64,000 bases of DNA from Natronolimnohabitans sp. A-GB9 (GTDB taxonomy: Archaea; Halobacteriota; Halobacteria; Halobacteriales; Natrialbaceae): assembly GCF_030848565.1 (NCBI RefSeq), contig NZ_JAVDDV010000002.1, positions 1-64,000 of the forward strand, written 5' to 3'. Shown here piece after piece: positions 19,802 to 62,025 of this stretch (position 1 is its first letter; the number at the start of each line of letters is the position of its first letter). A program made the position numbers and the translations under genes. The notes below the pieces were generated by a model. That model was not told the origin of the DNA. It made no database searches and saw nothing but the letters and a program-made list of their open reading frames with translations.

Positions 19802-19887
19802 TCATACGGACTGCTGTAGTCAATTACCGCCGATCGCCGACCCCGGATCTGGCGATCGGCGGTAAATCGTTACAGCGATCCGTATCA
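19802..19887. repeat. dispersed palindromic repeat, family 1, copy A
   Basis: 86 bp element. Ends TCATACGGACTGCTGTA and TACAGCGATCCGTATCA are inverted repeats (14 of 17 match). An inner 15 bp perfect inverted repeat (TTACCGCCGATCGCC) encloses a 12 nt loop. Its right-most TCA is, on the minus strand, the TGA stop of the PRC-barrel gene. Confidence 0.85.
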
Positions 19888-38041: not shown

Positions 38042-38710
38042 ATGGACCGTTCGAGCCGGGATCGACCGTGGCCGTCGGCACTCGAGTCGGACGTGGGCGC
38101 GCTTCCGCCAGGCGAGACGGCGACAGCCACGTTCGGTATGGGCTGTTTCTGGGGCCCCGACGCGTTGTTCGGAGCACGGTCGGGCGTCGTTCGAACGCGG
38201 GTCGGATACGCAGGTGGGACGACACCCGAGCCGAGCTATCACTCGCTGGGCGATCACACCGAGGTCGTCCAGTTCGAGTACGATCCGGACGCACTCCGCT
38301 ACGAGGACGTCCTCGAGTGGTTCTGGGCGAACCATGACTGGGCGTCGCCTGCACCGAAGCGACAGTACCGCAGCGTCGTCCTCGCTCACGACGACACACA
38401 GTACGAGACGGCCAGACAATCGCGGACCGCTCGCGAGGAGCGCGCCGGTCGATCGGCCGCGACCGACATCGAACGCCTCGAGGCGTTCACTCGAGCCGAG
38501 GACTACCACCAGAAGTACGAACTCCGATCGACGCCGGTCGCGGGCGACGAACTCGCGGCCCGCTGTGGCGACGCGTTCGTCGATTCGACGGTCGTCGCAC
38601 GACTCAACGGATTCGTCGCCGGCCACGGAGAGCCGGACCACCGCGAAGAGCTGGTGGCGGCGCTCGAACTCCCACCGACCGTCCGCTCGGAACTCGAGCG
38701 TCGGTTTTGA
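38042..38710 (+). CDS. msrA: peptide-methionine (S)-S-oxide reductase MsrA
   Basis: 222-residue repair enzyme reducing methionine-S-sulfoxide. Catalytic motif GMGCFWGPD (C35), then TRVGYAGGTTPEPSYHSLGDHTE and a FEYDPDALRYEDVLEWFW segment, all typical. The resolving cysteine is less clear; one Cys lies at AARCGDAF. It draws reducing power from thioredoxin-like proteins, of which this window encodes several. ATG 38042 is chosen; the upstream part is non-conserved. Confidence 0.92.
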   Translation: MDRSSRDRPWPSALESDVGALPPGETATATFGMGCFWGPDALFGARSGVVRTRVGYAGGTTPEPSYHSLGDHTEVVQFEYDPDALRYEDVLEWFWANHDWASPAPKRQYRSVVLAHDDTQYETARQSRTAREERAGRSAATDIERLEAFTRAEDYHQKYELRSTPVAGDELAARCGDAFVDSTVVARLNGFVAGHGEPDHREELVAALELPPTVRSELERRF

Positions 38711-38738
38711 TTAGTGGCTCTGGCTCGAACGTGAGAGT

Positions 38739-39155
38739 ATGACCGGTGACGATCGATACAAGCTGTTCGGCGTCTACCTCTCGCGGCCGGTCGCCGACGC
38801 TCTCGGCGACACTCTGTACGAGACGGCTGGCGTCGTCGACCTCGAGACGTACTTCGACGAGACCGCGGATGCGGTCCCCCAGGGCGATCCGGGCGCGGAG
38901 GCGACCGACGCGTTCGTCGCGGACGTGCTTGCGGAGTTCGCCGGCCTCTACGATCGGGCCGATTTCGAGGCTGCAGACGCCGTCGCGCCGGACGAGTTCG
39001 TCCTCGTTCAGTTGGCCGCAACACCCCAGCGCGTCTCCGAGATCCGCGAACGGTTTCGGGCCGCGGAGACGATCCAGGAGACGGACCTGCGGACGGTCCA
39101 GACCGCGATCCTCGCGGCCGCGCTCGGCGTCTCTCCGACGGCCGAAGCCGAGTGA
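38739..39155 (+). CDS. conserved haloarchaeal protein of unknown function
   Basis: 138-residue acidic, mostly helical protein (MTGDDRYKLFGVYLSRPVAD, then LAEFAGLYDRADFEAADAV, and C-terminal RTVQTAILAAALGVSP). No cysteines, metal motifs or membrane segments. I associate it with a haloarchaea-specific DUF but cannot name a function. It starts 29 bp after msrA, so they may form an operon. The stop TGA is the first three bases of palindromic element B. Confidence 0.65.
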   Translation: MTGDDRYKLFGVYLSRPVADALGDTLYETAGVVDLETYFDETADAVPQGDPGAEATDAFVADVLAEFAGLYDRADFEAADAVAPDEFVLVQLAATPQRVSEIRERFRAAETIQETDLRTVQTAILAAALGVSPTAEAE

Positions 39156-39235
39156 TACGGTCTGCTGTCGTCACGTCCCACGATCGCCAGGATGGGTCAG
39201 TGATCGACGGAACATCGGTCCAGGGGTCCGTATCA
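39153..39235. repeat. dispersed palindromic repeat, family 1, copy B
   Basis: 83 bp between convergent genes. The left end TGATACGGTCTGCTGTCG supplies the TGA stop of the gene on its left. The right end GGGGTCCGTATCA reads TGATACGG on the minus strand and supplies the TGA stop of the 46-residue gene on its right. The inner stem is less perfect than in other copies. Confidence 0.85.
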
Positions 39236-39373
39236 GGCCTCCTGCAGTTCGTGGATGGTCACCCAGTGGTCGGGATACGCGGCCTCGTGGTCGCTGGCTC
39301 GCCGGTTGGCTTCCGGCCAGTCCGGACACTCGCTGTCGAGGTCGCAGCTATCACAGCGAAGTAGGTATGCCAT
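39233..39373 (-). CDS. zinc-finger-like micro-protein (46 aa)
   Basis: MAYLLRCDSCDLDSECPDWP (C7, C10, C16) is followed by a helix with several His residues (DHEAAYPDHWVTIHELQ). It is a plausible C2-C-H type zinc site. ATG 39373, stop TGA inside palindromic element B. Function unknown. TATA-like bases are not obvious upstream. Confidence 0.65.
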   Translation of the reverse strand: MAYLLRCDSCDLDSECPDWPEANRRASDHEAAYPDHWVTIHELQEA

Positions 39374-39405
39374 ATGCTGCCATACTACGTCCGACAGCTT
39401 AACTC

Positions 39406-39615
39406 TTGCAGGCTAGAGTAACGACTGAAACGGTTCCCACACCGATCGTACAGCCCTCGTGCGATCGGGTGTGCACTGACTGTCAGTGGCTACTATACTG
39501 CGCCGACGACGGCGGTCGGTGCACTCACGCGACACCCGCCGTCGGCGGATTCACAGTACGTTCTGCTCGTTTTCGAACTCGGCTTTTTCCTCGTCGGACT
39601 CGACGACCGTCGTGA
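39406..39615 (+). CDS. possible small Cys-rich protein
   Basis: A 69-residue frame with a clustered Cys pattern in residues 19-40 (CDRVCTDCQWLLYC, then GGRCTH) that could bind zinc. The last 20 residues are Arg-rich and overlap the convergent secreted-protein gene, which argues against the full frame. Either a short real micro-protein or chance. Confidence 0.25.
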   Translation: MQARVTTETVPTPIVQPSCDRVCTDCQWLLYCADDGGRCTHATPAVGGFTVRSARFRTRLFPRRTRRPS

Positions 39616-39982
39616 CATCGACGTCCCCGTCGTTGGCCCGCACCCGTGCCGCGTCACGGTAGCCGAGGTCGACACGCTCCTCTCTCGTCACCGTGTCGCC
39701 GGCCTCGAGCGTGCCGATGTCCTCCTCGCTCTCCCAGACGTCGGTCCCATCGGCGCTGACGGTTACGGAGACGGTGACGTCGCTCGCGTCGTCGTCGCCG
39801 TCGTTGGCCAACTCGGCAGTCGCGTCCCGGCAGGTAGTTCCACATTCGACGATTTCGTAGTCAGAGAGTTCGAACGCCACGTCCGCCTCGTCCGAACCGT
39901 CGTCACTCGAGGCGACGGGACTCACGGCAATCGATGCGATTCCGGCACCGGCGAGGACGCTGATGGCTGTTCGTCGGTTCAT
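39551..39982 (-). CDS. secreted haloarchaeal protein with signal peptide
   Basis: 143-residue exported protein. It has an RR-containing signal (MNRRTAISVLAGAGIASIAVSPV, read in two parts), resembling a Tat signal with a SPVASS cleavage region. An acidic beta-rich mature domain follows (FELSDYEIVECGTTCRDA, then DVTVSVTVSADGTDVWES), containing a Cys pair. The fold resembles a CARDB/FxLYD Ig-like domain. Surface role unknown. Confidence 0.7.
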   Translation of the reverse strand: MNRRTAISVLAGAGIASIAVSPVASSDDGSDEADVAFELSDYEIVECGTTCRDATAELANDGDDDASDVTVSVTVSADGTDVWESEEDIGTLEAGDTVTREERVDLGYRDAARVRANDGDVDVTTVVESDEEKAEFENEQNVL

Positions 39983-40944: not shown

Positions 40945-41311
40945 TCTCCCGGTGCGTATATTCTGCCGTATCCTTCTGGGCGTATCTCTTCTCCGAGTAT
41001 CGTGACAGAACACGCCACGAGTACGTCTCGTTGAGAGGCCCGGAGACAGACGTATCGAGGAACAGCCCCCTGTGGGCACGGAAAGCGTTGAGTGAGACGG
41101 TCTCCTGTCGTCACTGGCCGCCGATCGCCAGAACGGTGTCGGCAATCGGCGGGAACTCGGTACAGCAGTCATGAGTGGATGGTGCCGAAAGATCGTGATC
41201 ATCAGTCTACTGTTCTTTCCCGCACCTCCCGGCCGTAGCCTGTTTAATCCGAAGCGCATGTAACTGTGGACGTAACAGGAACCCTTCCGTGAGTGGCACG
41301 TAATAGCATAC
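40945..41311. other. intergenic region holding palindromic copy F
   Basis: Only the repeat at 41093-41174 is recognisable. Around 41200-41300 the sequence is AT-richer with no TATA clearly assignable to the gene at 41312. Confidence 0.45.
41093..41174. repeat. dispersed palindromic repeat, family 1, copy F (diverged)
   Basis: 82 bp: TGAGACGGTCTCCTGTCGTCA ends (read in parts) with TACAGCAGTCATGA, and an inner GCCGCCGATCGCC / GGCAATCGGCGG pair. The CCGT of the right end is missing, so this copy is decayed. Confidence 0.65.
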
Positions 41312-45057: not shown

Positions 45058-45141
45058 TGATACGGTCTACTGTAATCAATTCCCGCCGATCGCCGACCCG
45101 TCCTGGCGATCGGCGAGACAGCGGGACAGCAGTCCGTATGA
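45058..45141. repeat. dispersed palindromic repeat, family 1, copy C
   Basis: 84 bp: left end TGATACGGTCTACTGTAATCA, read to 45078; right end ACAGCAGTCCGTATGA. The inner perfect stem CGCCGATCGCC / GGCGATCGGCG has a 10 nt loop. It lies between divergently transcribed genes, so it is not limited to 3' ends. Confidence 0.85.
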
Positions 45142-57770: not shown

Positions 57771-57856
57771 TGATACGGACTACTGTACGTCGGTACCGGC
57801 GCAACCGCGACCCGGGCTGCGGTTGCACCGGTACATCGGTACAGCAATCCGTATGA
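57771..57856. repeat. dispersed palindromic repeat, family 1, copy D (different inner stem)
   Basis: 86 bp with conserved ends TGATACGGACTACTGTA and TACAGCAATCCGTATGA. The inner stem is different in sequence (GTACCGGCGCAACCGC / GCGGTTGCACCGGTAC, one mismatch) but equal in form. Confidence 0.85.
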
Positions 57857-61941: not shown

Positions 61942-62025
61942 TCATGCGGTCTCCTGTCGTCAATTACCGCCGGTTGCCGGGATAGGACGGCAATCGGCAG
62001 GACATCGGGACAGGGGTCCGTATCA
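61942..62025. repeat. dispersed palindromic repeat, family 1, copy E
   Basis: 84 bp: ends TCATGCGGTCTCCTGTCG and CAGGGGTCCGTATCA, inner stem ACCGCCGGTTGCCG / CGGCAATCGGC with some mismatches. It lies between the tnpB element and the 3' end of the zinc-ribbon gene at 62044. Confidence 0.8.

Follow-up and report, generated by a model that had tools for sequence, protein, structure and literature searches.

Copy B and the genes that flank it

The stretch of DNA analysed here (64,000 nucleotides in all, referred to as the window) contains two convergent genes that meet at a short dispersed repeat, which we call copy B. The left gene encodes P138 and the right gene, on the opposite strand, encodes a small zinc-finger-like protein; the repeat occupies everything between their coding sequences and overlaps both stop codons (Table 1). 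The limits given in the original prediction, 39153-39235, are exact. The first TGA follows ...GCC GAA GCC GAG in frame and closes the P138 ORF, while the terminal TCA, read on the minus strand, is a TGA following ...CTG CAG GAG GCC and closes the zinc-finger ORF. The R1 model matched copy B over 39141-39251 (3.3e-22), and end typing on the plus strand gave R/L.

Table 1. Positions of the genes, of copy B and its parts, and of the other family copies in the window
Feature	Position	Strand	Remarks
P138, conserved 138-aa protein of unknown function	38739..39155	+	tblastn; third-position bias
TGA stop of the 138-aa gene	39153..39155	+	left terminal triplet of copy B
Copy B, MITE-like element	39153..39235	- (canonical orientation)	83 bp including both terminal triplets; aligned with 28 other copies
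Copy B core	39156-39232		77 bp; alignment with 28 other copies
Left terminal inverted repeat of copy B	39156..39168	+	TACGGTCTGCTGT; R-type
Right terminal inverted repeat of copy B	39220..39232	-	TACGGACCCCTGG (minus strand); L-type, diverged
TGA stop of the zinc-finger gene (TCA on +)	39233..39235	-	right triplet of copy B
46-aa zinc-finger-like protein (CDSC...CPDW)	39233..39373	-	orthologues; third-position bias
Family copy	19802..19887	-	TCA/TCA ends; a minus-strand gene stops at the right TCA
Decayed family copy	41093..41177 (end approximate)	-	triplet lost at right end
Family copy	45058..45141	-	TGA/TGA ends on + strand; off stop codon
Second-subfamily copy	57771..57856	-	core GGCGCAACCGC; same terminal inverted repeats and triplet rule; off stop
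Family copy	61942..62025	-	TCA/TCA ends; off any called stop

Neither P138 nor the zinc-finger protein matched a Pfam or NCBIfam family above the cut-off. By tblastn, P138 was found in nine relatives (60-74% identity) and orthologues of the zinc-finger protein in three (G005, G009, and G001; 70-76% identity), and in these three genomes both ORFs are kept, at 66-76% amino-acid identity. Differences from G005 are concentrated in the third codon position, with 5, 6, and 17 changes by position in the zinc-finger gene and 19, 22, and 53 in P138. Judged from these sequence comparisons, the ORFs on both sides of copy B are real genes. Just upstream of the zinc-finger gene, at 39413-39497, is a dispersed repeat of another kind, about 85 bp long (CGACTGAAACGGTTCCCACACCGATCG...CGATCGGGTGTGCACTGACTGTCAGTGGCTACTATA); copies 81-91% identical to it occur in many of the relatives searched, many per genome.

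The family to which copy B belongs consists of elements of about 83-85 bp, with the canonical form TSA-TACGGACTGCTGTaccGATgTCCCGCCGATCGCC...GGCGATCGGCGGgacGTGACGACAGGAGACCGTA-TSA and a terminal inverted repeat (TIR) of TACGGACTGCTGT (reverse complement TACGGTCTCCTGT; 104 ends counted). The element is short and without coding capacity, and at least 150 copies were detected in this genome with a covariance model. The window holds five of these besides copy B, and its copies align end to end. A second subfamily has the same TIRs as the first and the core listed in Table 1; fewer of the weak matches, most of which belong to it, lie at stop codons (5 of 15). The family is present in 88 of the 121 genomes sampled from the Natrialbaceae, the family of the host itself, and exact matches in named records come from two genera, Natronorubrum and Natronolimnohabitans, both Natrialbaceae. 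The element was not found in phage records; two plasmid records matched, both from N. bangense.

Target duplication and the preference for stop codons

We classified 95 full copies, taken from 1.17 Mb of the genome together with 20 further loci. Identical triplets bound 71 of them (36 TGA/TGA and 35 TCA/TCA, as read on the plus strand). Each kind is found with the element in either polarity, so the triplet is part of the target and becomes duplicated. An empty site was located in a relative: the sequence GACGG-TCA-GTG in G105 corresponds to GACGG-TCA-[element]-TCA-GTG in G098, and in each genome a minus-strand gene ends at this TCA. Insertion duplicates 3 bp, TGA or TCA, as this clean empty site confirms. 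A second candidate for an empty site (L186) had no counterpart in congeners. One TAA/TAA copy was observed in G098 beside the TGA and TCA kinds, and the decay of one triplet by a single base was seen in other copies. Insertion, one of the origins that the original prediction had offered for copy B, is thus borne out by the TIRs, the 3-bp target duplication, and the empty site.

Genes were called with an independent, home-made codon-usage caller (1093 genes in 1.17 Mb). In 45 of 73 full copies in this sequence the duplicated triplet falls exactly on a TGA stop, compared with an expectation of 10.6% (p 9e-26) calculated over every TSA site located at a stop or in noncoding DNA. With copies placed in canonical orientation, the strongly coding flanks running into the TGA/TCA end all do so in the stop frame (28 of 28 on the left, 15 of 15 on the right), never in either of the other two. 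Most of the orthologous proteins of G001, a genome without the element at these sites, stop at the same residue, among them proteins of 508 aa (95% identity), 256 aa (85%), and 197 aa (90%). The two N. bangense plasmid copies start exactly at annotated CDS ends. The enrichment at stops, the agreement in frame, and the orthologous stops together indicate that the family lands in existing stop codons and seldom creates them. To say that the element provides the stop codons of its neighbors, as had been proposed, is therefore misleading: pre-existing stops are targeted, and the duplicated triplet regenerates the stop.

The target motif, GWC-TSA-GWC, is visible in off-stop copies as well; it matches the common gene end GAC-TGA and accounts for part of the stop enrichment. 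A model based on the motif places 25-32% of copies at stops (with bootstrap values reaching 42%), as against 57-62% observed, so that the observed share is still about twofold above the model. The remaining enrichment would most likely come from selection acting against copies inserted in promoters or coding sequence. Active targeting of translation stop sites by the transposition machinery, perhaps through gene 3' ends or a bound factor in addition to the DNA motif, seems improbable to us; if true, it would make the element a transposon directed at stop codons, one whose duplicated triplet is the stop.

Stop-codon use was also tallied in other samples. The bias is weaker in 390 kb of G014, where copies belong mostly to the second subfamily and 5 of 22 are at stops (p 0.1); it is seen again in G098, with 5 of 8. 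Among 22 further copies in short loci of this genome, where the locus ends cut gene calling, 7 are at stops. Of 50 copies placed at stops, 36 have their L end toward the gene (p 0.003). At their downstream end most copies (e.g. L003, L007) read GGAG-ACCGT-ATG-A. This was considered as a Shine-Dalgarno sequence and start codon for the next gene, a reading rejected because the downstream flank is coding in that frame in only 1 of 73 copies.

Mismatched ends and a probable loss of the spacer at copy B

Only three of the 95 copies have TGA..TCA ends: copy B, C34:112518, and C12:366337. The same three are the only copies with stops on both sides (Fisher test against the 71 identical-end copies, 1.5e-5). 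With TGA on its left and TCA on its right, copy B does not carry an intact target duplication.

The locus was compared with its counterparts in relatives. G001 and G005 have no element there; the zinc-finger gene stops at the same codon, and the gap of about 550 bp between the convergent genes contains a MaoC-like gene (named from reading its sequence, without a family search). G009 has neither the element nor the MaoC gene at this locus, and its spacer measures about 85 bp. No orthologue of the MaoC-like gene was found in this genome at E 1e-20. By this alignment the zinc-finger stop is ancestral, and the element did not supply it, because the same codon serves as the stop in relatives without the element; the right triplet of copy B is probably its original target. 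The C-terminus of P138 is within the normal range of length here and varies among relatives, which counts against fixing the old position of its stop, although its TGA would, in our reconstruction, be the old one. The alignment with element-free relatives that had been proposed for finding the ancestral stop thus gave an answer on the zinc-finger side and, with a variable C-terminus, not on the P138 side.

The two other copies with mismatched ends also bear on the history of such sites. At C12:366337 both stops are at the codon positions found in G001, the G001 spacer of about 45 bp is gone, and the element alone lies between the genes; this copy carries two L-type ends, as expected from the joining of two copies. 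At C34:112518, where G001 has a gap of about 330 bp, the left stop is in register with its G001 counterpart. For all three mismatched copies, loss of the spacer following insertion is the shared interpretation. When copy B itself was divided into halves in a test for mosaic structure, the half on the zinc-finger side was more diverged than the other, a result that is suggestive only.

The order of events would be as follows. A transposase supplied in trans would recognize the TIRs of about 13 bp, and the element would enter a TSA triplet (TGA or TCA), preferably within a GWC-TSA-GWC palindrome, and duplicate it. Because genes of haloarchaea frequently end in GAC-TGA or something close to it, and because insertion regenerates the stop, stop codons would be favored and harmless landing sites. 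Copy B would have entered the stop codon of the zinc-finger gene. Later, the DNA between it and the convergent neighbor would have been deleted, exactly up to the neighbor's own TGA, either by recombination with a second copy at the neighbor's stop or by an adjacent deletion made by the transposase. The outcome would be a single element between two older stops, with triplets that do not match.

Insertion followed by deletion of the spacer is probably how copy B came to its present form, and it is the non-matching ends together with the missing spacer and its MaoC gene that point to a deletion after insertion. Selection for the shortest intergenic spacing, also proposed originally, is unneeded for the same reason. 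Both two-copy recombination and adjacent deletion are documented causes of missing target duplications in insertion sequences (PMC11708052). In no convergent gene pair did we see two copies lying close together, one at each stop. Chance alone would give just 0.4 double hits in 1.17 Mb; three collapsed pairs would therefore exceed chance, and adjacent deletion is somewhat favored over recombination between two copies. Repeats of this sort can become gene boundaries and can remove an intervening gene, here apparently a MaoC-like gene lost to the lineage.

The same arrangement could have been reached by a single insertion at the zinc-finger stop, with TCA at both ends, followed by a change of C to G in the left triplet that gave P138, by then reading into the element, a new TGA. 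One base would suffice, and single-base decay of the kind noted above has precedent in the family; with TCA on the left, the P138 frame would continue for 16 residues into the element and stop there. This route is nevertheless rather unlikely. It needs a P138 frame that already abutted or overlapped the zinc-finger stop, whereas in relatives the two genes are about 85-550 bp apart, and it leaves unexplained both the missing MaoC gene and C12:366337, with its two stops in ancestral position and its spacer gone. Pure chance, by which an intergenic repeat with TGA and TCA ends merely abuts two ORFs, might be entertained since stop triplets are common and a home-made caller produced the gene calls. 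It is scarcely credible in view of the excess of copies at stops over expectation, the placement of every strongly coding flank in the stop frame, the conservation of orthologous stops, and the N. bangense records, in which the database annotation is independent of our calls. Spacer deletion after insertion thus remains our preferred account.

Function of the element and its relation to known repeats

Copy B had also been viewed as a possible bidirectional terminator. Such a terminator of transcription, or a 3'-end module, maintained by selection where genes converge, would fit the enrichment of the family in that setting (40 of 95 copies) and its palindromic sequence; in Haloferax volcanii, transcription can be ended by a hairpin (PMC7237163). 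However, the main intergenic termination motif in Haloferax is a T-tract (PMC7237163), and the element has neither a T-tract nor a 3' T stretch. No terminator-like site was found within 38700-39700, and copy B folds no better than shuffled sequences (z -0.44). Across 29 copies no compensatory stem changes were detected (covariation score 0.095 versus 0.092 shuffled; 154 of 500 shuffles as high); column composition accounts for the pairing across copies, which does not exceed that of column-shuffled alignments. Enrichment between convergent genes is, moreover, shared by pneumococcal repeats that are presumed to be parasitic (PMC3049150). A terminator kept by selection is thus very unlikely, the idea having found no positive support, and the best-supported conclusion is that the element has no role for the host. 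For a parasite in a compact genome, copying the stop codon in which it landed would be a simple, harmless route. Given how widespread the family is in the Natrialbaceae, stop-codon use, 3' UTRs, and the annotation of gene ends would be affected in many haloarchaea.

Copy B is best explained, from its sequence features, as a short non-autonomous transposable element of the MITE type. Like MITEs, the family is under 100 bp in length, non-coding, bounded by TIRs and a target-site duplication, high in copy number, and divided into subfamilies that share TIRs. It differs in being G+C-rich, in its unusually strong preference for stop codons, and in that no parent insertion sequence was found in our search. 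Elements of the IS1031 group of the IS5 family make a TNA-type 3-bp target duplication. The triplets duplicated here (TGA, TCA, and in one case TAA) agree with the rule known for that group, but neither a TIR match nor a link to a transposase emerged here. A scan of the 1.17 Mb for TIRs paired 0.1-3.5 kb apart gave chance pairs only, none around a transposase. A lone TIR pair around a single gene was examined as an autonomous parent and rejected; the gene encodes a DHH-family protein. PF01609 genes are present in this genome, and one DDE transposase region (PF01609) examined in G098 did not carry these TIRs.

The BOX, RUP, and SPRITE repeats of pneumococcus are likewise small, presumably parasitic, and enriched between convergent genes, and in 36 genes the stop codon lies within BOX, with no clear sign that the protein is truncated (PMC3049150). 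BOX appears to us the closest behavioral precedent, although these repeats have no known sequence relation to the present family, in which the whole stop is the duplicated target triplet, hit to the base. Among haloarchaea, the SMR and PATE repeats of Haloquadratum walsbyi are also mobile without a transposase, and SMRs have a similar form, at 80-110 bp with inverted terminal repeats (PMC3119063). SMRs, however, are directed at other mobile elements and do not duplicate their target, and PATEs have no terminal inverted repeats (PMC3119063), unlike the family described here, which duplicates 3 bp and targets gene ends. The lack of a target duplication in SMRs means that the family is not the Haloquadratum SMR. 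A literature search found no paper describing this repeat family, which does not in itself prove novelty.

Several related arrangements were noted. Hybrid copies with the same end twice occur at C34:152438 (L-L ends, identical TCA triplets retained) and at C12:133942 (which looks R-R), and suggest recombination through the palindromic core. In G105 a copy of the element (C30:96255, L190) is followed directly by another repeat of about 100 bp, of which the genome holds further copies at 95-96%; the two form an insertion of about 199 bp that is absent from G116. Finally, about 68 palindromes of 22 bp like TACTGACTGCTGTCCGACAGTA, resembling two fused TIRs, were counted in the 1.17 Mb (e.g. C1:12819, C1:272377); nearly all are intergenic (4 in coding DNA), often 25-225 bp upstream of genes.
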